This document shows positions 20,607-62,191 of a stretch of 64,000 nt of DNA, one piece after another. Origin of the DNA: Magnetococcales bacterium (GTDB lineage: Bacteria; Pseudomonadota; Magnetococcia; Magnetococcales; Magnetaquicoccaceae); assembly GCA_011089965.1 (NCBI GenBank), contig JAANAU010000015.1, positions 1 through 64,000 of the forward strand. Direction: 5' to 3'. The translations under genes were made by a program, and so were the position numbers. Under the pieces are notes generated by a model. The model did not search any database. It was not told the DNA's origin and saw only the letters and a list, made by a program, of their open reading frames with translations. Numbering within the stretch: the stretch's first letter is position 1; each line of letters begins with the position of its first letter.

Positions 20607-23600
20607 ATGCCTGATGATTTTTCGTCAACCGTTTCAACAACGGGAAGAGTAACACCCAACGGCGCTTCAATAACAGGAAGAATTGAATCACTTAATGATA
20701 GTGATTGGTTTCAAATACAATTGATCGCTGATACGGAGTATCGGTTCCACGCCACACGTACCACTTTGCATGGATTGAGCGATCCGGTTCTCTATTTGTA
20801 CGACAGCCGTGGGGTGAACCTGGCCTTGGATGATGACAGTGGCGGACAGGGCAACGCACGGATTGCCTATTCGTGTCTGCTCTCTGGAACCTATTATCTC
20901 GGAGTGCGGGATTATTCGTCCGGGGTCGGGGCGTACACCCTGGCAGCAACCTATCCCATCGACGATCACCCCAACACAATGGCCACAACGGGCCAGTTGG
21001 TGATCAATGGTCCGGCACGCTCCGGCACCATCGACACCGTGCAGGATGCAGACTGGTTCGGGGTCACCCTGAATGCCGGTACGCTCTATCAACTGCGGGC
21101 AACACGTACCGGTTCCGCCGGTCTGACAGACCCCTACTTGACCCTGTACAATGGCCGTGGCGAGGAGGTCACCTCGGATGATGATCAGGGAGGGGGCGGC
21201 AACTCCCTGATCCGTTTCACCCCATCGGTCACTGGAACATTCTATTTGGGGGTGCGGGATTATGGTTTTGGAACCGGAAGCTATCTGATCTCTGCCACGG
21301 TGGATGATTTTGCCGGCTCGCGTATGACCACTGGGCGCGTGGCCGTCAATGGGACGGCGGTTGCCGGCACCATCGAAGGGCCGGAAGACCAGGACTGGTT
21401 TGCCGTCAATCTGACCTCCCGTTCCACCTATCGGTTGCGCGTCACGCGCAGCGGAACAACCAGTGGGTTGGTCGATCCCTATGCGACGCTGTTCGATGGC
21501 CAGGGCAATCCGGTCACATCCAACAACGATGGCGGCATTGGCAATAATGCGCAGATCACATTCACCCCGGAGAGTTCCGGCACCTATTACCTGGGTGTGC
21601 GGGATTTCAGCACAGGCACCGGACGGTATACCGTTTCTGTCGCCAACCCGGACGATTTTGACAGCTCGGTTGCCACGACTGGCCGTCTGGTGGTCAATGC
21701 ACCGACGGCAACACGCGGCAAAATCGAACGCGGCGGGGATCGCGACTGGTTTGCCATCACCCTGAACGCAGGCACGGCCTATCAATTGCGCGCTGAAGGG
21801 ACAACCACACTGAGTCTGTCCGATCCCTACCTGACCCTTTACAATGCCCAAGGACGCCTGATCACCTCCAACAACAACAGCGGCAGCGGCAACAATGCCC
21901 TGATACGTTATACCCCGACTCTGACCGGAACCTACTACCTGGGAGTCAGAGGCGATGCCAATACGGATCGCGGTTTTTATACGGTATCGGCAGTCAGTGC
22001 CGATGATTATGGCGGATCATCAACAACTTCCGGGAGTTTGTCGACCACAGGAACCGTACGCACCGGCATCATCGAACGGGTCGGGGATGAAGACTGGTTT
22101 GCCGTCACCCTGAACGCCGGTACATCCTACAGCGTGCGACTCAACCGTTCCACCACAGATGGATTGAACAACCCCTATCTTTCACTGTTCAACTCCAGCG
22201 GGGTTCTGATTGCCACGAATAATGACGGGGGACTGAATGGCAATGCCAGGCTGGTCTATACCCCACTGGTCACCGGAACCTACTATGTAGGCGCGCGGGA
22301 TGTCAGTAGCGGAACGGGCAATTATCGGCTCAGTGCCATTGTCACCACCACCACCAACCTGCAAGATGATTTTCTGTCCACCATGGCCACCACAGGTCGG
22401 GTGACGGTCAATCAAACCACCGGAACCTCTGGTCGCATCGAAACCGCCTGGGACAACGATCTGTTTGCCGTCACTTTGACCGCTGGCATCTCCTACCGCT
22501 TGAGCGCCACGGCTGCTGTCAGTGCCGGACTGACCGATCCATTTCTGACCCTGTATGATCCCCAGGGAACAGCCATTACCTATAATGATGACCATGGAAA
22601 CACACGTGACTCTTTGATCATTCATACTCCCACAGAGAGTGGTACGTATTATCTTGGAGTCAAGGATTACTCCAATGGCACAGGCTCCTATACAGTCTCC
22701 GCCATAACCGGAGATGATTATGGTGATTCCGCATCTGCTGCTGGCGTCGTGTTGGTCAACGAAGAAGCGGAGTCCGGACAGATCGAACGCAGTGGGGATC
22801 AGGACTGGTTTCTTGTGGTGCTCTCTGCCGATACTCCCTATCAATTCCATGCCACGTCAGAGATTGCGGCTGGTCTCACTGATCCGCTCCTCACCTTGTT
22901 GGATGGATACGGAAACGTCCTGACCAGCAACGACAATGCCCACAGCGGGACACATGACTCCCTGATCCGCTATACGCCGACTACTGAAGGAATTTATTTT
23001 CTTCAGGTCTCGGATCGTGGTACTGGCATTGGTGCCTATACCGTTTCCGCTTTGACCGATGATGATTATGCCGAGGCGGTGACCACAACCGGGCGTGTGA
23101 CTCCGAATGGTTCGGTCACTGGTATGATCGAATCAACCAATGATCGGGATTGGTTTCAGGTCGATCTGGTTGCCGGTCATGGCTATGCAATTGATCTGTT
23201 GGGTGAACCATCGGGAAACGGCACTGTACTGGATCCTTTTTTCTATGGCGTGTATACCAGCAGTGGGGAGCTGATCGGCAATACCAGCAACGATGATTCC
23301 GGAGACTCTGTGGAATCGTATATGCTGTTTATACCTGAAACCTCTGGCAGCTATTACCTCTCGGCAGGCGCCTATGGAACATACACTGGCAGCTACCTGC
23401 TGCGGGTCAACGATGTTTTGGCAACAGATATCGCCAATACAGTACAAACGACCGCCACTCTGGAGGTGGATGGTCGTGCCGAAAGTCGGATCGAATTGGC
23501 TCAGGATGTGGATTGGTTTCGAGTCACCTTGACGGCTGGCGAGACCTATATCATCGAACAGTGCAGCGACTCCAGCAGTGCTTCGCCATTGAGGGATCCC

Positions 23601-25928
23601 TATTTCCGGGGAGTGTACACGGCTGCCGGAACCCGCATCAGCGGGACATCCAACGACGATTACGGATTGGGCCTGGATTCCCGGGTGCAATTCACCCCCG
23701 AAAGATCCGGCACCTATTATCTGGCGGCAGGAGCGGCCAGCGGCACCGGAGATTATCTCCTGACCCTGACAGCCCGTACCAACAGCAACGACAACGTGGC
23801 AGATTCGACCGAAACCACAGCCTCCATCACTGTGGATGGCGACAGCGTGGATGGCGTGATCGATACCGCTTTTGAAAGGGATTGGTATCGCGTCAGCCTG
23901 ACATCCGGTCAGAACTACGAAATCAGCGTACGTGGAGCGGCCAGCAACTCCGGCAGCTTGAGTGATCCCGTGTTGATCGGTGTGTACGATGCAGACGGAA
24001 GAGTTCTGCCCGGGACCGGCAACCAGAATGCTCAGGGTACTTCCGATGCCTTTTCCACATTTCGTCCCGCCTCCAGCGGCACCTATTATCTGGCCGTGGG
24101 GGGGTATGCCGACAATACCGGAACTTTCCGGTTGTCGATCAACACCAGCAACGATACGGATGTGCCGGATAATGTTACAACTTCTGCAACGATGACGACT
24201 GAGTATCGTGGCCGGGTCGAGGCGGTTTGGGATGTGGACTGGATCCGTGTGGCACTCACGGCAGGCACCACCTATCGCATTCAGGAGTTGGGAAGCTCGG
24301 GCGGACATGGCACCTTGCGGGATCCGATGATTCATGGGATCTATGACAGCAATGGCTTGGCGCTGCCTGGCACCTCGAATGATGATGTCAACGATACCCG
24401 CAACTCTGAAGTCACCTTCACAGCCCCGGTCACGGGCAATTTCTACCTTGCAGCCGGTGCGTATGGCACCGAAACCGGCAGCTATTTTGTGACCATGACC
24501 GCAGGGGATCCGGACACCTCGCAACCGCAAATGGTCAATGCGATTCCGGCCACGATCAATCCGGCCTCCAATCTCACCCTGACCTTCAATGAAACAATGC
24601 GCGCAGGTAGTGGGAATCTGCGTATTACCGGCGGTGGAGAAACCATCACCATCGCCATCACCAGCCCCCAGGTCACCATTTCCGGGGAGACAGTCACAAT
24701 CAATCCTGGGCAAAATCTGGCAGACAATACCAGCTACACCCTCTCCATCGACAATGGTGCACTGACCGATCTGGCTGGCAATGCCTACGCTGCGAACACA
24801 AACCTCTCCTTTGCAACCAGTGCAATCACGGATCGCGACACCTGGACGATCATGTTCTACATCGATGGCGATAATGATTTGGAGTCATATGCCATCGATG
24901 ATCTGAATGAAATGGAGTCGGTAACCATACCAGAAGGGATCAATCTGGTGACTCTGCTGGATCGGATCCCAGGTTATGATTCCAGCAACGGCAACTGGTC
25001 GGATACCCGTCAAGGGGTCATGCTGACCGATTCCAATCCCAACACCGTGACCTCATTTTCTGGTTTCAGCTCTCTGGGCGAGCAGAATCTGGGCAATCCG
25101 GCCAGTTTGACCCGCTTCATCAACTGGGCTGCCACCAACAATCCAGCGGATCACTATGCCCTGGTGGTCTGGGACCATGGCGGGGGATTGTCCGGGAGTT
25201 GTTGGGACGATACGAACAATGGAGACAATCTGACCGCCAATGAGTTGCGTTCGGCCATCGACAACTCCAATGTGGATCATTTTGATCTCATCGGTTTTGA
25301 TGCCTGTCTGATGGGCATGACCGAGCAGGCCTGGGATTTACGTAATCTCACCGATGTGATGGTGGCCTCCGAAGAGTTGATTCCCGGAACCGGTTGGGCG
25401 TATGACCTTTGGCTGCGAGATCTGGCCAACAACCCCAACATGTCCGCCACAGATCTGGGATCCAGAATCGTACAAACCTATGCCCAGCGCAATGCCGGCG
25501 AGGAGGATATCTCCTTGTCTGCAATCCAGAGCAATCAATTGACTGCTCTGAATACGGCCATGGAAGCGTTTGCCTCCCGGGCACTGAGTCTGCCTGCAAC
25601 ATCCCAGGAGTGGCAAAAAGTGCGTCAGGCCGCAGAACGCACGGTCAGTTTCGGTGGAGAAGGGAATCGTTACAACTATCGTGACTTGGGCGATTTCATG
25701 AACAATGTCGCTTCCCGCGCCACCGATGCCAATCTGGTTACCGCAGCCAATCATGTGGTGGCCCAACTGGATCAGGTGGTTTCCGCCAATGCCGGCACCA
25801 TTGCCGGCGCCAGTGGTCTCTCCATTTATCTGCCATATGGTTCCAGACCGGTGGATGCCAGTTATACGGCCACCAATCACTCGTTTTTGTCTTCTTCCTC
25901 TTGGGAGACCTTTCTGGCCACACTGTGA
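20607..25928 (+). CDS. Large PPC-repeat protein with Ig-like and clostripain (C11) peptidase domains
   Basis: A 1773-residue protein. Residues 1 to about 1300 are eleven PPC-type (pre-peptidase C-terminal) beta-sandwich repeats, each with DWF near the start and SGTYYLGVRD near the end. About 1307-1408 is an SbsA/Big_5-type Ig-like domain (NLTLTFNETMRAG). From about 1411 a C11 clostripain-family domain begins (WTIMFYIDGDNDLE), with the expected His1524 in WDHGGG and Cys1567 in DACLMGM. TAAGGAG lies 6 bases upstream of the ATG. There is no N-terminal signal peptide; the protein starts directly in the first PPC repeat. A secreted or surface peptidase is inferred, exported by a route not visible here. 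Confidence 0.9.
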   Translation: MPDDFSSTVSTTGRVTPNGASITGRIESLNDSDWFQIQLIADTEYRFHATRTTLHGLSDPVLYLYDSRGVNLALDDDSGGQGNARIAYSCLLSGTYYLGVRDYSSGVGAYTLAATYPIDDHPNTMATTGQLVINGPARSGTIDTVQDADWFGVTLNAGTLYQLRATRTGSAGLTDPYLTLYNGRGEEVTSDDDQGGGGNSLIRFTPSVTGTFYLGVRDYGFGTGSYLISATVDDFAGSRMTTGRVAVNGTAVAGTIEGPEDQDWFAVNLTSRSTYRLRVTRSGTTSGLVDPYATLFDGQGNPVTSNNDGGIGNNAQITFTPESSGTYYLGVRDFSTGTGRYTVSVANPDDFDSSVATTGRLVVNAPTATRGKIERGGDRDWFAITLNAGTAYQLRAEGTTTLSLSDPYLTLYNAQGRLITSNNNSGSGNNALIRYTPTLTGTYYLGVRGDANTDRGFYTVSAVSADDYGGSSTTSGSLSTTGTVRTGIIERVGDEDWFAVTLNAGTSYSVRLNRSTTDGLNNPYLSLFNSSGVLIATNNDGGLNGNARLVYTPLVTGTYYVGARDVSSGTGNYRLSAIVTTTTNLQDDFLSTMATTGRVTVNQTTGTSGRIETAWDNDLFAVTLTAGISYRLSATAAVSAGLTDPFLTLYDPQGTAITYNDDHGNTRDSLIIHTPTESGTYYLGVKDYSNGTGSYTVSAITGDDYGDSASAAGVVLVNEEAESGQIERSGDQDWFLVVLSADTPYQFHATSEIAAGLTDPLLTLLDGYGNVLTSNDNAHSGTHDSLIRYTPTTEGIYFLQVSDRGTGIGAYTVSALTDDDYAEAVTTTGRVTPNGSVTGMIESTNDRDWFQVDLVAGHGYAIDLLGEPSGNGTVLDPFFYGVYTSSGELIGNTSNDDSGDSVESYMLFIPETSGSYYLSAGAYGTYTGSYLLRVNDVLATDIANTVQTTATLEVDGRAESRIELAQDVDWFRVTLTAGETYIIEQCSDSSSASPLRDPYFRGVYTAAGTRISGTSNDDYGLGLDSRVQFTPERSGTYYLAAGAASGTGDYLLTLTARTNSNDNVADSTETTASITVDGDSVDGVIDTAFERDWYRVSLTSGQNYEISVRGAASNSGSLSDPVLIGVYDADGRVLPGTGNQNAQGTSDAFSTFRPASSGTYYLAVGGYADNTGTFRLSINTSNDTDVPDNVTTSATMTTEYRGRVEAVWDVDWIRVALTAGTTYRIQELGSSGGHGTLRDPMIHGIYDSNGLALPGTSNDDVNDTRNSEVTFTAPVTGNFYLAAGAYGTETGSYFVTMTAGDPDTSQPQMVNAIPATINPASNLTLTFNETMRAGSGNLRITGGGETITIAITSPQVTISGETVTINPGQNLADNTSYTLSIDNGALTDLAGNAYAANTNLSFATSAITDRDTWTIMFYIDGDNDLESYAIDDLNEMESVTIPEGINLVTLLDRIPGYDSSNGNWSDTRQGVMLTDSNPNTVTSFSGFSSLGEQNLGNPASLTRFINWAATNNPADHYALVVWDHGGGLSGSCWDDTNNGDNLTANELRSAIDNSNVDHFDLIGFDACLMGMTEQAWDLRNLTDVMVASEELIPGTGWAYDLWLRDLANNPNMSATDLGSRIVQTYAQRNAGEEDISLSAIQSNQLTALNTAMEAFASRALSLPATSQEWQKVRQAAERTVSFGGEGNRYNYRDLGDFMNNVASRATDANLVTAANHVVAQLDQVVSANAGTIAGASGLSIYLPYGSRPVDASYTATNHSFLSSSSWETFLATL
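20610..24510 (+). repeat. Eleven tandem PPC-type coding repeats
   Basis: Units begin near 20610, 20959, 21303, 21651, 22001, 22366, 22713, 23059, 23421, 23788 and 24157, a period of about 345-370 bases. The first seven or eight share DD(F/Y)xxSxxTTG at the start and an LTDPYLTLY core. The last three or four are a variant with LxDPxxxGVYxxxG and SNDD. Confidence 0.85.
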
Positions 25929-52957: not shown

Positions 52958-54910
52958 TTAAGGATTGGGGCGTTTGGTACCAAAGCGGTCCAAGGCAGCG
53001 AGCAGGGTCTTTTTGCTGATCGGTTTGCTCAGGTGATCATCACAGCCTGCATCACGGCACTGTTTGGCTTCTCCTTCCATGGAGTGGGCAGAAAGGGCCA
53101 GGATCACCATGGGGCGTGGTTGACCGCTCTTTTTCTCCCAGGCCCGGATCAGGGTCGTGGCGCGCAGACCGTTCATGACCGGCATTTCGATATCCATGAG
53201 GATCAGATCAAAGGGGTGTTGCTTCACAAGTTCGACGGCAGCGGCACCGTCTGCAACCGTGTGCAGCGTATGTTTGGTGTTTTCCAGATAGATCGTGATC
53301 AGTTCACGGTTCTCTTCCACATCTTCGACCAGCAGAATGTTGAGGGCAGTGCCAGTTCCGGGCGCAGGATTGGTGTGAACCGTGGATGATGTGATGTGGG
53401 GAACCACAGGATCGGTTGGACGTAACGGAATCGTGAACATGAATCGACTTCCCTGTCCTCGTTGGCTGTTGACCCAGATGTGCCCTCCCATCATGGTGAG
53501 CAGGTTGCGGGTCAAAGAGAGTCCCAATCCTGTGCCGCCATAGCGTCGGGAGATCCCGGAGTCGGATTGGGTGAAACTTTCAAAGATGCTCTCTTGCTGG
53601 TGTGGATCAATGCCAATGCCGCTGTCAGCCACCACGATCAACAGGGTATCCGCTTTTTTGGGATCGAGGCCGATCTCCACCAGCACCCCCCCCTGATCGG
53701 TAAACTTGATCCCATTGCTGATCAAATTATAGAAACATTGCTTCAAACGGATGCTGTCGGCCAGGATCCATGCGGGAATCTCCGGAGCCATGCGCAACTC
53801 CAGGGACAACCCCTTTTTTTGCGCCAACACCCGCAACATATCGGTCACCTCTTTGGCCAGGGCATGAATCTGGATGGGTTCCGAGGCAATCTGAAGTTTG
53901 TTGGCTTCGATCTTGCTGAGATCCAGAATATCATTGATCAAAAGAAGCAGATTGTCGCCAGCAGTCCGCAACATGGTGAGATAATTTTTCTGTTCTGCGC
54001 TTAACGGGGTTTCCAGCAGCACATCGCCCATGCCCAGGATGATGTTCATGGGGGTACGGATCTCATGGCTCATGGCAGCCAGGAAATCGCTTTTGGCCTG
54101 ATTGGCCTTCAATGCGTCGGCCTGGGCGCGGCTTAAGGCCAGTTCGGCCTGTTTGCGCTGGGTCACATCGCGCAACATGGCCAACAGCAGTTTCTGCTCC
54201 CCTTGAGCAAAAATTTGCAGATTGGTCTCGGTGTAATGGTGTTGGCGCTGTGCGTCCCGGTACGCACCTTCCACGATCAACCGCCCCTGGGAGCGGATGC
54301 GCTCCAGCAGCAGCTCCATCTCACGATACTGACCGATGATCAGATGACAATCCTCCAGGTGAAACTCACCGATGGCTTCGTTCCGTTCCAGACCCAATCT
54401 CTGAAAGGCCGTGACATTGGCATCCACCAACAGTCCGCTTTGAAGATCAAAGATCAGAATTTCATCACTGGATTCATCCAGCAGATTGTGAAACAGCCGG
54501 ATCGCCTGCTCCTGGGCACGGATGTGCTCTTTTTGGCGATAGAGTTCCAGAAAGACCTTGACCTTGGCCCGCAAAAACTCCGGGGGAAAGGGTTTGACCA
54601 GATAATCCACAGCCCCCAGATCATACCCCACCAAAGCATGTTGATCATCCTTGAACACAGCGGACATGAAGATGATCGGTATGGTACGGGTGCGACTCAC
54701 GCCCGCCATGAGTTTCACCACCTCAAAACCATCCATGTCCGGCATGTGGGCGTCGAGCAGCACCACGGCAAATTCATGTCTGGTGAGTTGCAGCAAAGCC
54801 TCGCGACCGTTGCGCGCCAGGACCATCTCGGCATTCAGGTCAGCGAGCAGTCCGGCAGTGGCAGTCAGGTTGTTGTCGAGATCATCGACAATCAGGATGT
54901 GCGGTTTCAT
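52958..54910 (-). CDS. Hybrid histidine kinase REC-PAS-HisKA-HATPase-REC
   Basis: A 650-residue soluble protein. The N-terminal receiver has Asp53 ([13 protein letters not shown]), followed by a PAS domain (about 145-265; [15 protein letters not shown]). HisKA has His282 ([12 protein letters not shown]), the HATPase has [13 protein letters not shown], and a C-terminal receiver has [13 protein letters not shown]. No HPt domain is fused. Its start is 4 bases after the stop of the GAF kinase, so the two are one operon and the N-terminal receiver is a likely target of that kinase. Confidence 0.93.
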
Positions 54911-54914
54911 GGCA

Positions 54915-57383
54915 TCACCGGTTTTTGTCCACCAGCCAAGGGCGCATCATGGATAACAGCTTGGCACTATCCACGGGTTTGGAAAGATAGTCCGAGGCTC
55001 CAGCCTCCAGGCAGCGTTGACGTTCCCCATGCATGGCCTTGCCCGTTACGACCAGAATGGGAATCTCGCGCCAGGCAGGCTGATGGCGAATCTCGCCGAG
55101 CAGTTCATAACCGTTCATATCTGACAGCAGGATATCCAACAGGATCATGTCAAGCAAAGGATTTTTTTGCAATATTTGCAAAGCTTCCCGACCGTTCTCT
55201 GCCATGTTGACCTGACATCCCTGTTCTTCAAGCAGACTGGTCAGTGCAAAAACATTACGAATATCTTCATCAACAAGAAGGATGCGTCGTCCGGACAGCA
55301 GGGCAATCGTCTGGGGCGTACGCGGAGCTTGTACAGGTGTGGTGTTGAGCACCTCAAACTCCAAGGCAGGCGGCTCATCCAAGGGTGGGGGTGGAGCTGT
55401 GCGCAGTGTATTCAGAAAGTGTTGGCATGCTTCCAGAGTGGAGTCATGGGTGCGTGTCATGGGGTGCAACCGGATGGATCCATCGGTGACATTCAGGGTT
55501 GGGGCGGCATTGGCCGGATGGAGATACAAAGTTGGCAAGGATTGGCGGTTGGCTGTGGTTTTCAACCGTTCGATCATCGGCAGTGCCGCAACCCCGGGCA
55601 GATTTCCCACCAGGATCAATCCGACCGGACGCAGAAAATTGGCCAGAAACAAGGCTGCGCTCTGGTCTCCTGCCACGACCACCCCAAAGCCCTGACTGCG
55701 TGTGGCCTCGCTCAGAGAGCGCATGTGGTGGTAATCGATGCCTACCAGCAAAATGGCATGATCATCCGGTCCCAGACGGCGACGATCATCCGGAATGCCC
55801 TCCACATTGCCAGGTACGCGCTCCTCTGGTCGGGTGTGATGCAGGGCAGGTATGGGTTGGATTTCGGCACTTTCCGCAGGGAGCAGAAAGGTAAACAGGC
55901 TGCCTCGCCCCTCTTCGCTGGTCAGTTCGATGCGACCCCCCAGCAATTGGGTCAACTCCTTGCAGATGGCCAGACCCAGCCCGGTACCGCCGTATTTGCG
56001 GTTGATGCCGTCATCCAGTTGGCGGAAGGGTTCAAACACCTCGGACTGCTGCTCTTTGGGGATGCCAACACCGGTATCGGCCACCGACATGGCAATGAAA
56101 GAACGCCCCTCCTCTTTGACCGCACGGAACGTTACGGTCACACTCCCGGCCTGGGTGAATTTGATGGCGTTGGTGATCAGGTTTTTGAGGATCTGTTCAA
56201 CCCGCATGCGATCCGTACGAATGGCTACCGGCAGCAGACCCTTTTGCAGCACCTCAAAGGAGAGCCGTTTTTCCCGGGCCACATGGGTGAAGAGTCTTTC
56301 CAGATTGGTGGCCAGATCTGCAAGTTTCACCGGTTCTTTGAAAATACTGATCCGTCCGGCCTCGATGCGGGCCAGATCGAGGATTTCATCGATCATGGTG
56401 AGCAGATCCGAACCGGCGGCATGGATGGTGGAGGCATATTCGATCTGTTTGGCCGTGAGGTTGCCGTGTTTGTTTTCTTTCAGGAGTTGGGCAAGAATCA
56501 GCAGACTGTTGAGGGGGGAACGCAATTCGTGGGACATGTTGGCCAAAAAACGTGACTTGAAGCCGCTGGTCTGCTCCAGAAGGACAATGGTATCTCGCAA
56601 TACTTGTTGATTGATGGCCAACTCTTCGGTTTTGCGACGACTTTCATCCAACAGCTTTTGACGGATGGAGTGGGCGCGCACGCCAGCCAGAGCACGGGCG
56701 ATGGTCTCTTCGGCCCGCTCCAGAAAGCAGACGTGGCGGTGTTGGAAACGGGTGCGCGCCCCCAAGGCGAGTATGCCCTGCAACTGGTCGTCATGAATCA
56801 GCGGAATCACCAACAGGTCATGCGGCACATTGGTCACCAGCTCCGAGTGGACCCGCAACGGCTCGATGGGCAGATCGGTCAGACGCACGCTTTTGCGGGT
56901 CATGGCCACCTGTCCGAGGATCCCTTCGCCAAATGCCAATCGTTTGGACCAGTTGCGATCCGCAGGCGTACCAATGCCGGTCAACCAGTGCAGGTGTCGA
57001 TCCTCGCTGCTCAAATAAACCACCCCATTGAGGGCATCCAGGGATTCGATCAGAAAGAGCAATGTTCTTTCGGCGAGGGACTCCGTGGTGGTCACATCCC
57101 GCATGCGCAGACTCATGGCCAGATGGATGGAGTGGATCCACTGCCGATCCATCAGCTCCCGATACAAGGGGAGGTGGAAAAAGATCAGAATGATGGCCAG
57201 ATTCCAGGCAGTCATGCTGAAGAAATGGAGCAGAGTGGCTGAGAATGAAAGCGCCGTACCACCCAGGAGCGGAGTGAGCAGCACGGTCAGGGCGGTTTCC
57301 CCGATGCCGATCAAGGTCAGGCCAAGCAAAAAACGGGTCGGGGATTGACACCCCCCGAAAAAACTGCGAAACGGATCCTGCAT
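54915..57383 (-). CDS. Membrane GAF hybrid histidine kinase with degenerate and intact receivers
   Basis: An 822-residue protein. Hydrophobic helices (about 15-75) precede a GAF domain (about 100-240; RLAFGEGILGQVAMTRKSV). HisKA has His285 (NMSHELRSPLNS) and HATPase has GGTGLGLAICKEL. Then comes a receiver-like region (about 545-625) in which the phospho-acceptor position reads LILVGNLPG, so it cannot be phosphorylated normally. The C-terminal receiver is intact (MILLDILLSDMNG). The first helices may anchor it to the membrane. The ATG at 57383 is chosen; a GTG at 57395 is possible but sits on the AGGGGGA ribosome-binding stretch. Confidence 0.9.
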   Translation of the reverse strand: MQDPFRSFFGGCQSPTRFLLGLTLIGIGETALTVLLTPLLGGTALSFSATLLHFFSMTAWNLAIILIFFHLPLYRELMDRQWIHSIHLAMSLRMRDVTTTESLAERTLLFLIESLDALNGVVYLSSEDRHLHWLTGIGTPADRNWSKRLAFGEGILGQVAMTRKSVRLTDLPIEPLRVHSELVTNVPHDLLVIPLIHDDQLQGILALGARTRFQHRHVCFLERAEETIARALAGVRAHSIRQKLLDESRRKTEELAINQQVLRDTIVLLEQTSGFKSRFLANMSHELRSPLNSLLILAQLLKENKHGNLTAKQIEYASTIHAAGSDLLTMIDEILDLARIEAGRISIFKEPVKLADLATNLERLFTHVAREKRLSFEVLQKGLLPVAIRTDRMRVEQILKNLITNAIKFTQAGSVTVTFRAVKEEGRSFIAMSVADTGVGIPKEQQSEVFEPFRQLDDGINRKYGGTGLGLAICKELTQLLGGRIELTSEEGRGSLFTFLLPAESAEIQPIPALHHTRPEERVPGNVEGIPDDRRRLGPDDHAILLVGIDYHHMRSLSEATRSQGFGVVVAGDQSAALFLANFLRPVGLILVGNLPGVAALPMIERLKTTANRQSLPTLYLHPANAAPTLNVTDGSIRLHPMTRTHDSTLEACQHFLNTLRTAPPPPLDEPPALEFEVLNTTPVQAPRTPQTIALLSGRRILLVDEDIRNVFALTSLLEEQGCQVNMAENGREALQILQKNPLLDMILLDILLSDMNGYELLGEIRHQPAWREIPILVVTGKAMHGERQRCLEAGASDYLSKPVDSAKLLSMMRPWLVDKNR

Positions 57384-57461
57384 GCCTTGTTCCACTCCCC
57401 CTTTTGGAAACGCACTCGGTATGGCGTCAGGCCGCCGTTACTCTTCTCGTCAGTGCCTGTA

Positions 57462-58376
57462 TCATCCTGCTCCCAGGCAGCAATAACGGTTCCTGCCCAG
57501 ATTTTTGGCCTGATACATCGCTTGATCGGCATTTTGCAGGAGTTGGATGAGATCCTGGGCATCATCGGGGAAGAAGGCAACGCCGATACTGGCCGAGATC
57601 TGCGCAATGAAGTCTGAAAGCTCAAAGGGTTGTGCCAGGACGGACAGGATTTTTTCGGCAACGATCCTGGGATCGGATTGTTGACACGGATTGGCCAGAA
57701 TCATCGTGAATTCATCCCCTCCGAGTCTGGCCAGGGTGTCGGAGGTACGCACACAATTTTTGAGACGTTGTGCTACCAGCCGCAGCAGTTCATCGCCAGC
57801 AGCGTGTCCTTTGGTATCATTGATCTCTTTGAAATGATCCAGATCAATGAAGAGCAGGGCCAGGGACTCCTGATTGCGGTTGGCCAGGGAGATGGCATGT
57901 TGCAGGCGATCCAGAAACAGTGTACGGTTGGGCAGATCGGTCAGTTGATCATAGGTGGCCTGATAACGGATGCGCGCCTCTTCGACGTTCCGTTCAAGAA
58001 GGATACGAATGCGTTGACGCAGGATGGCCCAGTGGATCGGTTTGGTGACATAATCATCGGCACCGGACTCAAAGGCCAGATCGACCGATTCGGAGTCGAA
58101 CATGCCGGTGAGCATGATGATCGGAATTCTGGAATCGATCCAACGACTGCGCATGGCGCGACAGGTGGCAATGCCATCGAGATTCGGCATGCGCACATCC
58201 AGAAGAATCAGGTCTGGCGTGGTTTGCGACCGCAGATGCAGCGCCTCCTCGCCATCTTTGGCCAACAGGCTTTGGTGGCCAAGGCGATGCAGAAAGGTGG
58301 CCAGTGATTCTCGAATCAGATCATCGTCATCGGCAACAAGCACGATGGCATTTTGGGCAGTACCGATCTGCTTCAT
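57462..58376 (-). CDS. Response regulator diguanylate cyclase (REC-GGDEF)
   Basis: A 304-residue PleD/WspR-like protein. The receiver has Asp60 (LILLDVRMPNLDG) and the GGDEF domain starts near 145. The active-site motif GGDEF is at 219-223, with an intact inhibitory I-site RTSD at 210-213 exactly five residues upstream. It should make cyclic di-GMP when phosphorylated and be subject to product inhibition. It sits between the HPt gene and the two hybrid kinases, so it is a likely output of the relay. Confidence 0.94.
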   Translation of the reverse strand: MKQIGTAQNAIVLVADDDDLIRESLATFLHRLGHQSLLAKDGEEALHLRSQTTPDLILLDVRMPNLDGIATCRAMRSRWIDSRIPIIMLTGMFDSESVDLAFESGADDYVTKPIHWAILRQRIRILLERNVEEARIRYQATYDQLTDLPNRTLFLDRLQHAISLANRNQESLALLFIDLDHFKEINDTKGHAAGDELLRLVAQRLKNCVRTSDTLARLGGDEFTMILANPCQQSDPRIVAEKILSVLAQPFELSDFIAQISASIGVAFFPDDAQDLIQLLQNADQAMYQAKNLGRNRYCCLGAG

Positions 58377-58420: not shown

Positions 58421-58828
58421 CTATGGCTCGTTTACTCCTTCCTTGTCTTGAAACGGTCTGGATGCGCCCATGTCATGGCAATAGCGGGTCAACTCCTGAC
58501 TGGCCACGACACTGGAGGCAATCAACTGTTCCACCAGCGGTTCGACATCCTGCAAGGAACCGGTGGCAGACATGGCTTCCAATTGTGCTGCCAAATTCCC
58601 CATATTTTGCAGTCCGACCTGACGGCAGACGCTTTTGAGCGAATGGCTCTCCATGGCAACCCGTTCGGGATCCTGTTCGCGCAGGGCTTGTCGGATCCGT
58701 TCCGGTCGATGCACGATGCCGGCCTGATAGTGACGCACCACCGTAAAGAAACCGCCTTCCAGTTCTTCGTGCATTTCGGTCAATTTGTGCAGCTCAATCA
58801 ACTCTTGATATAAATTGGTAGTATTCAT
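58421..58828 (-). CDS. Stand-alone histidine phosphotransfer (HPt) protein
   Basis: A 135-residue helical protein with the HPt motif ESHSLKSVCRQVG; the phospho-accepting His is His62. HPt proteins pass phosphate from the receiver of a hybrid kinase to other receivers. AAAGGA precedes the start. It begins 6 bases after a solo receiver gene. All four hybrid kinases in the window lack an HPt domain, which makes this the obvious shared carrier. Confidence 0.9.
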   Translation of the reverse strand: MNTTNLYQELIELHKLTEMHEELEGGFFTVVRHYQAGIVHRPERIRQALREQDPERVAMESHSLKSVCRQVGLQNMGNLAAQLEAMSATGSLQDVEPLVEQLIASSVVASQELTRYCHDMGASRPFQDKEGVNEP

Positions 58829-58834
58829 GGATCG

Positions 58835-59230
58835 TTATTCCTTTGTCGGTTCGACGTCCGAGGATTGAAGCGCACGTGTGACCTTCTGCAACACCGTTCC
58901 AGCCTGGAACGGTTTGGTAATGATGTCCATGGCACCAAAGGATTTGGCCATCTCCAGAGTCAAGCGGGAGTTCATGGCTTTGTAACCACCGGAGATGGCG
59001 ATCACCTTGACATTGGGACGATGGGCATGCAGAGCGGCGAGGAGATCGATGCCATCCATCTTGGGCATAAAGATGTCGGTGATGATCAACTCCACCGGAT
59101 GGGAGGCAAACAACTCCAAACCGGTCTCCCCATTGCTGGCCTCCAGTACCGTATGTCCGGCCTGCCTCAACAATGTGATCAGGTAGAGCCGGAAGCTCTC
59201 GTCATCGTCCACTACCAGTATGTGTGCCAT
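58835..59230 (-). CDS. Single-domain response regulator 1
   Basis: A 131-residue CheY-like receiver with the acidic pocket VVDDDE, Asp52 (IITDIFMPKMDG) and Lys in TKPF. No output domain. AAAGGA precedes the ATG at 59230. It is about half identical by eye to the next receiver, including TDIFMP and the GAVLQ/GTVLQ tail, so the two are tandem duplicates. Confidence 0.92.
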   Translation of the reverse strand: MAHILVVDDDESFRLYLITLLRQAGHTVLEASNGETGLELFASHPVELIITDIFMPKMDGIDLLAALHAHRPNVKVIAISGGYKAMNSRLTLEMAKSFGAMDIITKPFQAGTVLQKVTRALQSSDVEPTKE

Positions 59231-59264
59231 GCTGTCCTTTGCCTTTTCACAATTGCCCATATCA

Positions 59265-59645
59265 TTACACAGCGGCTGACTGCAACACCCGATCCACCAC
59301 CTGCAACACAGCTCCGGGTTGAAACGGTTTGCTGATCAGCTCGTTGGCACCCAATTTCTTGGCCACGTTCAAGGCCAAAGCGGGGGTCATGCCGGACCCG
59401 CCTCCGCTCATGGCGATCACCTGAATGCGTGGATGGCGTCTGAGCAGCGTTGAAAGCAGCTCGAAACCGTCCATGCGCGGCATGAAGATATCGGTGATCA
59501 ACAGATCGAACGGGTCGAGTGCGATTTTGTCCAAGGCATGCAGTGCGCACTCGACTTCCAGTACCACATGGCCCGCACCTCTGAGCAGAGTACCGAGGTG
59601 GACCCGGAAGGGTTCATCGTCATCTATGATCAAGATCCGGGCCAT
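59265..59645 (-). CDS. Single-domain response regulator 2
   Basis: A 126-residue CheY-like receiver with IIDDDE, Asp52 (LITDIFMPRMDG), a Ser/Gly-rich active loop (MSGGGSG) and Lys in SKPF. AAGGAG precedes the start. It lies between the kinase-like/receiver fusion and receiver 1 on the same strand. Confidence 0.92.
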   Translation of the reverse strand: MARILIIDDDEPFRVHLGTLLRGAGHVVLEVECALHALDKIALDPFDLLITDIFMPRMDGFELLSTLLRRHPRIQVIAMSGGGSGMTPALALNVAKKLGANELISKPFQPGAVLQVVDRVLQSAAV

Positions 59646-59669: not shown

Positions 59670-60851
59670 TCATTTCTTGGCGCGGTTGCGCATGATCCGA
59701 TAGCGCGACAGGGCGTGACGGATCGAGCGCACCAGGGTTTTTTTGTTAACCTGACCTTTGACAAGATAGTCCTGAGCACCCGCATCCACAGCCTGGGCTG
59801 CTTTCTGGTCGTCGTCCATACCGGTAAAGACGATGATCGGTGTATCGAGGAGTTTGCGATTGATCCGGCCAAAGGTTTGATCCAGCCCCTGACTGTCTGA
59901 CAGGTTGAGATCCAGCAGAACCAGGTCGTATTGGTTGTGTTCCAACAGATCTTCAGCCTCTTTGAAGCTTTTGGCATGGGTCAGATGCACGGGTGGCGCT
60001 TTGATGCCATCCCTTTCGCCGGTGCCGGGCCAGGTTTCCAACCAGCCATTGATCAGGGAGTAGAATTCCATTTCGTCTTCGACCACCAGGAAATGGAGTC
60101 CGAGTTGCAGCGGCGGCAAGGGTTTGAACTCCAGAGGGGCCTCCGGGTGTTGCGGGTGATTGGCCTGTTGTTGGTCGATATAGCCCATCCGTTCCATGGC
60201 GTGGACAATGATATCGACGGCATGGACCGGGTCGATGCGATCCGTATTGAGCACCAGGTCGTAGTAGGTGCGGGTATTGGGATAGCGTTTGAACAGTCCT
60301 TTGAGGAAGCGGGAACGTTCCTTTTCGATTTCGATGATTTTGCGTTTGGCTGCGTCCAGGGTGATCCCTTCGCGCTGGGCCACCCGGCGGATGCAGACAT
60401 CCTTGGCACCTTCGATGTGGATGCGGAACACATGAGGATCGTGGGCCAGGATCAGACGGGCACCGCGTCCCACGATCACACCCCCGGTCTTGGCGATGTT
60501 CAGAATGGTTTTGATAATATTTTTGTAGTAGCCGGAAACCGACTGCTCGGGTTTGACGAACAGCGAATAGAGAAAGCTGTCGATGGCCCGAGGCAGTTTC
60601 TCATCCATGATCGACATGAGTTTCTTGGTGGTATGGGTTTTGTTCATCAACTCGTCGATCATCGAATGGCCGTAGCAGGTCACGCCGAGCCGTTCTGCCA
60701 ACAATTCGGCGATCTTGCCGCCATTGGAACCGAAATTCCGTGAGACGGTGACAACGATGGGGTGGCGCTCTTCCGGGGCATGGCCAGTGGCATGGCCTTC
60801 CTTGAACAGCCCGGATTTGACGACACTACCGATTCCGATATTGGGTTCCAT
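59670..60851 (-). CDS. Cytidylate kinase-like domain fused to a receiver domain
   Basis: A 393-residue protein. Residues about 31-222 match the cytidylate kinase-like family (Cytidylate_kin2): a P-loop-type start VTVSRNFGSNGGKIAELLAERLG, then GGVIVGRGARLIL, HIEGAKDVCIRRVAQREG and YYDLVLNTDRI. After a linker, residues about 252-388 are a receiver with VVEDE, Asp314 (LVLLDLNLSDSQG), Thr343 and Lys365. This joins a nucleotide kinase-like domain to phosphorelay input. The substrate is unknown; the family is distinct from housekeeping Cmk. CGGAGA precedes the ATG. It is probably co-transcribed with the receivers and the HPt gene. Confidence 0.88.
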   Translation of the reverse strand: MEPNIGIGSVVKSGLFKEGHATGHAPEERHPIVVTVSRNFGSNGGKIAELLAERLGVTCYGHSMIDELMNKTHTTKKLMSIMDEKLPRAIDSFLYSLFVKPEQSVSGYYKNIIKTILNIAKTGGVIVGRGARLILAHDPHVFRIHIEGAKDVCIRRVAQREGITLDAAKRKIIEIEKERSRFLKGLFKRYPNTRTYYDLVLNTDRIDPVHAVDIIVHAMERMGYIDQQQANHPQHPEAPLEFKPLPPLQLGLHFLVVEDEMEFYSLINGWLETWPGTGERDGIKAPPVHLTHAKSFKEAEDLLEHNQYDLVLLDLNLSDSQGLDQTFGRINRKLLDTPIIVFTGMDDDQKAAQAVDAGAQDYLVKGQVNKKTLVRSIRHALSRYRIMRNRAKK

Positions 60852-60884: not shown

Positions 60885-61259
60885 TCAGGCTCCAGGCCTG
60901 GAATTTGGAATGTCTGCATAGCGCAACGGGTGCCAGAGACGATTCCAGGGCTTCTCAAGGCGGGCCGGATCACAATTCGGGTTGCTCAACCGGTTGGGAA
61001 TTCCATCCAGTTTTCTGGAGCAGGTGGCCGCCCGGCGTATATGATGCCAGAGTTGGACCGCTTCACGCAAATGGGCAGCTTTATCTTCATCACGATTCCG
61101 GTAGGGCATGGCTGCGAGCACTCCTTCCAACCGGCGTGCATGCACTCTGGCCTCCATTACCTGGGTATGTAGTGACAACAGATGAGTAATGGCTTCCAGT
61201 TCTGCCTCTTCCAGGGTGGCGAATTGGAATTGGCTGCCGTTGATATGGATGGTCACCAT
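60885..61259 (-). CDS. Small protein of unknown function heading the signalling cluster
   Basis: A 124-residue protein with no recognised domain. The start is a beta-strand segment (MVTIHINGSQFQFATLEEAE), followed by a helical region with many His and Arg, and a Pro/Asn-rich tail. AGGAG lies 7 bases before the ATG at 61259. It is 33 bases upstream of the kinase-like/receiver gene and the probable first gene of that operon. Confidence 0.6.
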   Translation of the reverse strand: MVTIHINGSQFQFATLEEAELEAITHLLSLHTQVMEARVHARRLEGVLAAMPYRNRDEDKAAHLREAVQLWHHIRRAATCSRKLDGIPNRLSNPNCDPARLEKPWNRLWHPLRYADIPNSRPGA

Positions 61260-61567
61260 GGGTGTTCTCCTGCGGTAAGATCGGGTTAAGCGGGTCATGT
61301 TGACTATATTATTTTCCCGATTTTCTCATATTGCAAGATTATTTTATATTGATTTTCATTTTTTGCGCATTTTTCGGAGACAGCCAGGTCTGCAAACCAA
61401 GAATATATGTAAATAATTCCATATTTATGACAGACGAAAAAATTCCTTGCTCCTGCGTCGACAATCCTTTAAGCTGAAGTAGGTAGTGAGAGAAATTGGA
61501 ACCGGCTGCAAAATTGGTAATTTTTGCAACCTGTATTGGACACCCTTCTGATTCCGTTGGAAACACG
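61260..61567. other. AT-rich divergent intergenic region
   Basis: These 308 bases separate the small unknown gene (minus) from the HTH-receiver gene (plus). A weak minus-strand promoter candidate is TTGCAA (61331-61336) and TAATAT (61306-61311) with a long 19-base spacer. The inverted repeat at 61507-61528 is described separately. I see no RNA gene. Confidence 0.35.
61507..61528. promoter_or_regulatory. Inverted repeat upstream of the HTH-receiver gene
   Basis: TGCAAAATT and AATTTTTGCA face each other around GGT, about 40 bases before the ATG at 61568. It could be the binding site of the HTH protein itself or of another regulator of the divergent region. Confidence 0.35.
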
Positions 61568-62191
61568 ATGTCATCGATCCGGACCCCCGAAGCCGATCCA
61601 GTGGTCACCACTTCCAAAGCCGCTCAATTGCTGGGCGTTTCACAACGAACCATCCACTACTGGATGGAACGGGGCATCATCAAATCCTGGAAAACCGCTG
61701 GTGGGCACTGCCGGATTCCGATGAGTTCCATCAATCAACTCCTCGCGAAAAGACGCGAACAGTTGCAGGATCCGGATCTGCTGGAGTTGACCGTGCTGCT
61801 CGTGGAAGACGATGAAAATCTGCGCGAGATCACCAAGGCCGTGGTGGCCAACTGGGGCCTGCCGGTCCGCCTGGTGGTGGCCGAAGATGGTTACGATGGC
61901 CTGATCCAGGCCGGACTGCATAAACCGGAAGTGATCATCGCCGATCTGATGATGCCAGCCATGGATGGATTTCAGATGATCCGCGCACTGCGCGAAGCCC
62001 CGGATCTGGCGCGCACGCGCATCGTGGTCGTGACTGCCATGGATGAGGTGCAACTGAATGCCAAAGGCGGCGTGCCCGACGATGTCGAAGTGTTCCAAAA
62101 ACCCACCCCATACGACCGCCTGAAGGTGGTCATCATGGAGTCGCTCTTCACCCAACAACGGGCGCGCCGGATGAACTCTTCGGCTTCATGA
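61568..62191 (+). CDS. Excisionase/MerR-type HTH fused to a receiver domain
   Basis: A 207-residue protein. Residues about 13-62 form an excisionase-family (HTH_17, MerR-like) DNA-binding domain (TTSKAAQLLGVSQRTIHYWMERGII, followed by GGHCRIPMSSI). Residues about 75-200 form a receiver with VEDDE and Asp126 (IIADLMMPAMDG). The order is unusual, because most response regulators have the receiver first. TTGGAA precedes the ATG at 61568; the frame extends to 61496 through the inverted repeat and is less likely. It is probably the DNA-binding output of the neighbouring relay. Confidence 0.88.
   Translation: MSSIRTPEADPVVTTSKAAQLLGVSQRTIHYWMERGIIKSWKTAGGHCRIPMSSINQLLAKRREQLQDPDLLELTVLLVEDDENLREITKAVVANWGLPVRLVVAEDGYDGLIQAGLHKPEVIIADLMMPAMDGFQMIRALREAPDLARTRIVVVTAMDEVQLNAKGGVPDDVEVFQKPTPYDRLKVVIMESLFTQQRARRMNSSAS

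Follow-up and report, generated by a model that had tools for sequence, protein, structure and literature searches.

A PF13189 cytidylate kinase-like domain fused to an intact receiver at a conserved phosphorelay locus of Magnetococcales

Passages on the Thermus CMP kinase (PMC7259600) describe Lys15 as bridging ADP and CDP, i.e. donor and acceptor, with the phosphates held by Arg126 and Arg171 and cytosine read by Asp127; for the Yersinia CMP kinase, passages of PMC3603445 report no activity in the Arg131Ala, Arg110Ala, and Arg188Ala variants. The PF13189 family, found in several phyla and represented by two solved structures without a functional name, is named after this enzyme, whose key lysine it lacks. 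Here we describe a protein, termed FUS, in which a PF13189 domain is fused to a receiver, which gives the family an assayable context. FUS is encoded by a Magnetococcales MAG within a 64,000-nucleotide stretch of DNA (the whole stretch analyzed, referred to as the window). Our search of the open-access PMC literature found no paper describing the fusion; domain databases may already list such architectures. One paper that lists PF13189, PMC7806268 (DolP/BON), contains no passage on the fusion or the family in its main text. We tentatively propose, at a probability of roughly 0.45, that FUS acts at the end or at a branch of a phosphorelay, in which receiver phosphorylation would be coupled to a nucleotide-binding PF13189 module as output. 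The support comes from sequence: the Pfam domains, the intact receiver, the conservation of the PF13189 half, the kept arginines, the synteny, and the repeated, independent joining of PF13189 to receivers.

Pfam identifies the whole PF13189 domain in the first half of FUS (aa 33-204, covering profile positions 1-175 of 176; E 4e-39, 135 bits, above the curated cut-off of 28) and PF00072 (Response_reg) in the second half (aa 290-376; E 1.9e-15, 57.4 bits versus a cut-off of 30.2). Across 15 orthologue rows, conservation is highest in the PF13189 half, with 75% mean pairwise identity and 80 of 197 positions invariant; the receiver shows 71% identity and 57 invariant positions out of 135, and the short, variable linker 24% identity and no invariant position. 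The receiver residues Glu258/Asp259, Asp314, Thr343, and Lys365 are identical in all 15 rows. An AlphaFold2 model from a deeper alignment (mean pLDDT 81) superseded an earlier model with a pLDDT of 68; its first half matches 3hdt (Z 22.5) and 3fdi (Z 21.0), and its second half matches receivers with Z up to 20.8. The VIA-align list for the model is filled by receivers, with no CMP kinase chain among the matches listed. The Pfam matches to both halves and the full-length orthologues confirm the original prediction of a kinase-like domain and an intact receiver in one open reading frame, with Asp314, Thr343, and Lys365 where it had placed them.

Table 1 Features of the FUS locus, in window positions.
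Feature	Position	Strand	Description	Basis
FUS fusion protein	59670..60851	-	393 aa from ATG; PF13189 (Cytidylate_kin2), linker, receiver	
FUS PF13189 domain, aa 30-226	60174..60764	-		Pfam and orthologue alignment
FUS receiver domain, aa 251-385	59697..60101	-	Glu258/Asp259, Asp314, Thr343, Lys365	
FUS Asp314	59910..59912	-	predicted phosphorylation site	receiver family, for the role
FUS P-loop-like stretch, aa 37-46	60714..60743	-	SRNFGSNGGK	alignment
FUS GRGA motif, aa 128-131	60459..60470	-		alignment
RRb	59265..59645	-	solo receiver, 126 aa	Pfam; synteny
RRa	58835..59260	-	solo receiver, 141 aa	Pfam; synteny
HPt protein	58421..58828	-	135 aa; candidate phosphoacceptor His in ESHSLKS	Pfam; synteny
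REC-GGDEF (diguanylate cyclase)	57462..58376	-	304 aa	Pfam; synteny
GAF-HisKA-HATPase-REC hybrid histidine kinase	54915..57395	-	826 aa	Pfam; synteny
REC-HisKA-HATPase-REC hybrid histidine kinase	52958..54910	-	650 aa	Pfam; synteny
Divergent MerR/HTH_17-REC regulator	61496..62191	+	231 aa	Pfam; synteny

FUS is followed on its own strand by two genes for solo receivers and then by genes for an HPt protein, a REC-GGDEF protein, and two hybrid histidine kinases; the series that FUS thus heads is likely an operon because the gaps between the genes, taken from the coordinates, are only 4 to 85 bases. The two solo receivers and the HPt, which had been predicted to form part of a defined pathway with FUS, indeed adjoin it on the same strand (Pfam), and the pathway claim is borne out by what is likely a conserved phosphorelay operon: in 10 of the 14 other loci, FUS-RRb-RRa-HPt keep this order on one strand (tblastn). 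The divergent MerR-REC gene is likewise found upstream of FUS in 10 of the 14 (tblastn). Hybrid kinase, HPt, and receiver are encoded together at the FUS locus, and what is conserved is the gene set of a multistep phosphorelay. The loci of G011 and G015 keep only FUS and one receiver (tblastn); the next genes there encode similar proteins, and the G015 one, which was scanned, has a PilZ domain. The second FUS copy of G017 is accompanied by HPt and a partial REC-GGDEF (tblastn), and the first copy is close to a contig end. In G001, G002, and G008, a gene encoding a cNMP-binding-REC (cNMP-REC) protein lies directly upstream of FUS.

Some additional features were observed around these genes. RRb and RRa form one 260-aa double-receiver protein in G002 and G001 (L040:10577-11359, L042:10350-11132). 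A 137-aa ORF at window positions 60885-61298 (minus strand), between FUS and the divergent MerR-REC gene, has no Pfam match and finds a 60% match over 64% of its length in G004 only. Elsewhere in the window, a protein of 1773 aa (positions 20607-25928, plus strand) combines several PPC domains with a clostripain-family (C11) peptidase domain at its C-terminus.

The full-length fusion occurs in 14 of the 18 genomes of the window's family, i.e. 9 of 11 in the window's genus and 5 of 7 in a second genus, with two copies in G017; the same search found it in 0 of 30 genomes of other Magnetococcales families. Its full-length recurrence in 13 further genomes of the family, at 62-82% identity, indicates that the fusion is not due to chance. 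FUS was not found in G003 (77% complete), G006 (57%), G012 (91%), and G014 (99%), and this absence from four family genomes, two of them more than 90% complete, counts against the output reading. Those relatives that carry a name come from Magnetococcales MAGs and from Candidatus Magnetaquicoccus inordinatus UR-1. A single scan of genome_contigs with two peptide patterns gave 144 relatives, of which the best 80 were kept (79 loci); 13 of these loci, all from Magnetococcales, carried the fusion, and the other 66 had no receiver in the matched ORF. At L061, the ORF neighbouring the fusion (L061:8480-9736) encodes a cNMP-REC protein. None of 95 pattern stretches on viral contigs encodes a relative, and 6 plasmid records match the PF13189 half only. 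We also surveyed PF13189 itself in 398 Pseudomonadota genomes, 48 of them Magnetococcales. Matches above 90 bits are present in 43 of these 48, a 44th having a weak match only, and in 3 of the 350 others, where all remaining matches stay below about 45 bits, weak scores of the kind probably given by canonical Cmk.

Residues were assessed in an alignment of 79 PF13189 domains, 15 from FUS and 64 solo, with the solo rows L091 and L124 left out. Conserved residues include R38 (78/79), R129 (79/79), R143 (78/79), R156 (75/79), R179 (79/79), and D198 (78/79), whereas the Walker-A Lys column holds Lys in 0/79 and Gly in 71/79. In the P-loop-like stretch of FUS, Arg38 replaces the first Gly and Gly44 replaces the Walker Lys. 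R38, G41, G44, G128, R129, G130, and A131 are present in all 15 FUS rows, and the family-conserved motifs SRxxGxxG and GRGA are both found in FUS. Its P-loop aligns without gaps to that of canonical Cmk (VVTVSRNFGSNGGKIAELLAERLG with VVAVDGPAGAGKGAVCRSAAARFG); its GRGA aligns with the Cmk GRD, which places R129 at the phosphate-binding Arg and Gly130 at the cytosine-reading Asp; and R179 aligns, again gapless, with the LID Arg (ERD Arg). Since the FUS-to-Cmk alignment scores are weak (best 9.3 bits for a whole protein), these equivalences depend on the lack of gaps and on the succession of strands and helices that the model shows. The weak scores count against the output reading, as do a non-significant hhalign profile comparison of PF13189 with Cmk (probability about 1%) and a reverse search of the FUS-Cmk comparison that found nothing. 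So do the absence of the Walker-A Lys from all 79 aligned domains and the changes in FUS at sites that hardly vary among the solo relatives, where it has Gly for D61, Thr for D75, and Arg for H132, and where R145 is variable. FUS has no match to PF02224 (CMP kinase) at E 0.001 in Pfam.

As judged from this alignment, the PF13189 family keeps the phosphate-holding arginines and lacks the catalytic Lys and the cytosine-reading Asp. The retained arginines speak for a functional nucleotide site in FUS, and the two missing residues argue against CMP kinase chemistry; CMP and dCMP are poor guesses for the acceptor because the cytosine-reading Asp aligns with Gly130, and "cytidylate kinase" is not a safe label for the domain. 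The original prediction of a nucleotide kinase controlled by a receiver is partly supported: the fusion and the intact receiver are real, and the kinase part is weakened by the missing residues. P-loop degeneracy, which had been named as grounds for refuting that idea, is half present: the Walker Lys is gone, yet family-wide, and the other phosphate-binding arginines are kept, so the FUS copy itself has not decayed.

If FUS is an output component, the hybrid histidine kinases, HPt, and receivers would form a multistep phosphorelay ending or branching at FUS. Its PF13189 domain may bind a nucleotide other than CMP, or bind without specificity for CMP, by means of an Arg-based P-loop. Phosphorylation of Asp314 would alter the packing of the receiver and thereby open or close the PF13189 nucleotide site, and nucleotide binding, or phosphotransfer on some substrate, could be the output of the relay beside the c-di-GMP output of REC-GGDEF. 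Taking PF13189 as output, not input, is a preference over the reverse direction; in either case, FUS would add a nucleotide-binding output or input to the diguanylate-cyclase-carrying phosphorelays of magnetotactic bacteria.

The reverse direction is suggested by the origin of the receiver. The same genome encodes a cNMP-REC protein (L047:3921-4940) with a receiver related to that of FUS, and the receivers of FUS and of cNMP-REC proteins are about 57% identical. In a tree of 48 receiver rows, including 15 FUS and 23 cNMP-REC rows from Magnetococcales, the FUS receivers come out as a single clade (100/99) within the cNMP-REC receivers and group with those of the same family (94/83), and by this phylogeny the FUS receiver descends from cNMP-REC proteins. 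PF13189 thus occupies the place of the cNMP-binding domain of these relatives. In a sensor reading, the PF13189 domain would be an input that senses a nucleotide (energy or messenger) and tunes phosphate gain or loss of the attached receiver, as the cNMP-binding domain presumably does in the cNMP-REC family. The joining of PF13189 to cNMP-binding domains, on either side of them, and in Planctomycetota to CBS, fits such a role, as does a degenerate PF13189 domain that precedes HisKA in G013 (L137), where a sensor usually sits, and the loss of the catalytic Lys is consistent with binding without catalysis. However, the sensor-like degenerate copies lost Arg129, which FUS keeps in 15/15 rows, and a C-terminal receiver following a catalytic domain would look identical. 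We consider the sensor possible, if somewhat doubtful, and retain the output reading.

The PF13189 half was placed in a separate tree of 94 rows, in which FUS forms one clade (100/100) inside the Magnetococcales solo proteins. Among other Magnetococcales, we found PF13189-cNMP-REC in G025 (L134:5667-7463, 598 aa) and in G030 (P0002, cut by the contig end, with a partial receiver match below the cut-off), PF13189-cNMP in G018 (L136:4374-5522), the opposite order, cNMP-PF13189, in G019 (L078:2326-3480), and a degenerate PF13189-HisKA-HATPase-REC protein in G013 (L137:2819-4717). In AU tests run after the PF13189 tree had been seen, a one-clade constraint was rejected for FUS with the PF13189-cNMP-REC proteins (p-AU 2.65e-61), for the same set including the related G018 protein (L136; p-AU 4.0e-5), and for the PF13189/cNMP proteins of G018 and G019 (p-AU 1.4e-4). 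A single origin of the receiver-bearing PF13189 fusions in Magnetococcales is rejected by these trees.

The survey for fusions covered 398 Pseudomonadota, 294 Planctomycetota, and 40 Sumerlaeota genomes, with follow-up confined to selected long open frames of about 320 aa or more. PF13189 was found at 35 places in 27 of the 294 Planctomycetota genomes and at 32 places in 26 of the 40 Sumerlaeota genomes; of these, we retrieved 16 stretches containing long open frames. Two of the 16 encode PF13189-REC, one in Planctomycetota (G544, L197) and one in Sumerlaeota (G702, L203). In the Planctomycetota protein of G424 (L192), PF13189 occurs with CBS and a sub-threshold BON match, and a protein of G597 (L193) is alike by sequence. 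Because PF13189 has repeatedly been joined to receivers as well as to kinase or nucleotide-sensing domains, its coupling to signalling is well supported, and the second option of the original prediction, a kinase-like domain serving as a signal module, gains from these fusions to cNMP-binding, receiver, and histidine-kinase domains. Nevertheless, the GR motif is lost in the PF13189-REC proteins of G544 and G702 and in the histidine-kinase fusion, suggesting that the motif is dispensable for a signalling role of PF13189, which counts against the output reading of FUS. More speculatively, PF13189 might here have no part in nucleotide biosynthesis and be a general signalling cassette: a P-loop fold, Arg-based and without the Lys, would bind or make a nucleotide signal and would have been added several times, each time independently, to phosphorelay proteins (REC, cNMP-REC, hybrid kinase) of Magnetococcales and other phyla; if so, one protein would read or write both a phosphorelay state and a nucleotide signal.

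The genomic context of the solo relatives was less informative. Immediate neighbours were taken from a greedy ORF call, which dropped 15 of the 66 solo loci (target lost), and neighbours above 650 aa were left out. The 84 adjacent proteins scanned showed no common theme, which counts against the output reading; the commonest matches were CNNM/CorC, ATP-synthase epsilon, and CBS, with 4 each. The four epsilon-chain matches are probably the similar 147-aa proteins that follow the solo PF13189 gene at L119, L122, L127, and L131 (Sulfuricella and a relative). Besides FUS, its genome has just one further PF13189 gene (230 aa; L002:369-2085, contig C35), which is preceded by a gene whose product, we presume, resembles polyphosphate kinase 2; PPK2 was found by Pfam in 2 of the 84 neighbours of other solo copies. 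At L066:7911-13774, a close solo relative in the family precedes a REC + HD-domain protein (Pfam), with an apparent large hybrid histidine kinase also at this locus, suggesting that unfused PF13189 can also sit in a signalling context.

PF13189 genes often form tandem pairs in Magnetococcales. A divergent copy, with GCGAH or GAGAH replacing GRGAH, directly precedes the PF13189-cNMP(-REC) gene in all three of G025, G030, and G018 (L134:5005-5691, L135:1663-2691, L136:5550-7514); these copies form one clade (99/98) and look like pseudo-enzyme partners. Three Sumerlaeota proteins of about 475 aa are tandem double PF13189 proteins (L204:802-2226, L205:1172-2593, and L207:1-1134, the last cut by the contig start). 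Such pairs and doubles would fit a FUS domain that is itself a pseudo-enzyme acting by protein contact only, e.g. by pairing with a solo PF13189 protein, with the receiver controlling the contact. We regard this as unlikely, given that the putative phosphate-binding residues are strongly conserved in FUS and that the window holds no tandem PF13189 partner for it. An ordinary CMP/dCMP kinase under two-component control, for which the Pfam name and a weak match to TIGR02173 (archaeal (d)CMP kinase; aa 112-219, 37.5 bits, cut-off 102.1) might speak, was rejected as the leading reading and is highly improbable, as the Walker Lys and the cytosine-reading Asp are absent and a canonical Cmk is encoded elsewhere in the genome (207.7 bits) and in 27 of 27 good-quality genomes among the 48 Magnetococcales.

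The output reading can be set against several known systems. FUS has the fold and the family-conserved residues in common with the PF13189 structures 3fdi and 3hdt ("uncharacterized protein" and "putative kinase"), but these chains are single-domain, whereas in FUS a receiver is added and the solo relatives' residues D61, D75, H132, and R145 are not kept. With canonical CMP kinase (Cmk, PF02224) it has in common the order of secondary structure and the GR and LID arginine motifs in a gapless alignment, without the Walker-A Lys, the cytosine-reading Asp, or a PF02224 match. The Magnetococcales cNMP-REC proteins (e.g. L047:3921-4940) have, like FUS, an N-terminal nucleotide-type domain and a receiver of common descent, but the N-terminal domain is PF00027 in these proteins and PF13189 in FUS. 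PF13189 and a receiver also occur in one chain in the PF13189-cNMP-REC proteins of G025 and G030, where the kinase-like domain is of separate origin, and in the PF13189-REC proteins of G544 and G702, which are without the GR motif that FUS has. Finally, multistep phosphorelays with enzymatic-output regulators (REC-GGDEF, REC-HD-GYP) bring together hybrid kinases, HPt, and receivers as at the FUS locus, and FUS would differ from these regulators in having PF13189 as its output domain.
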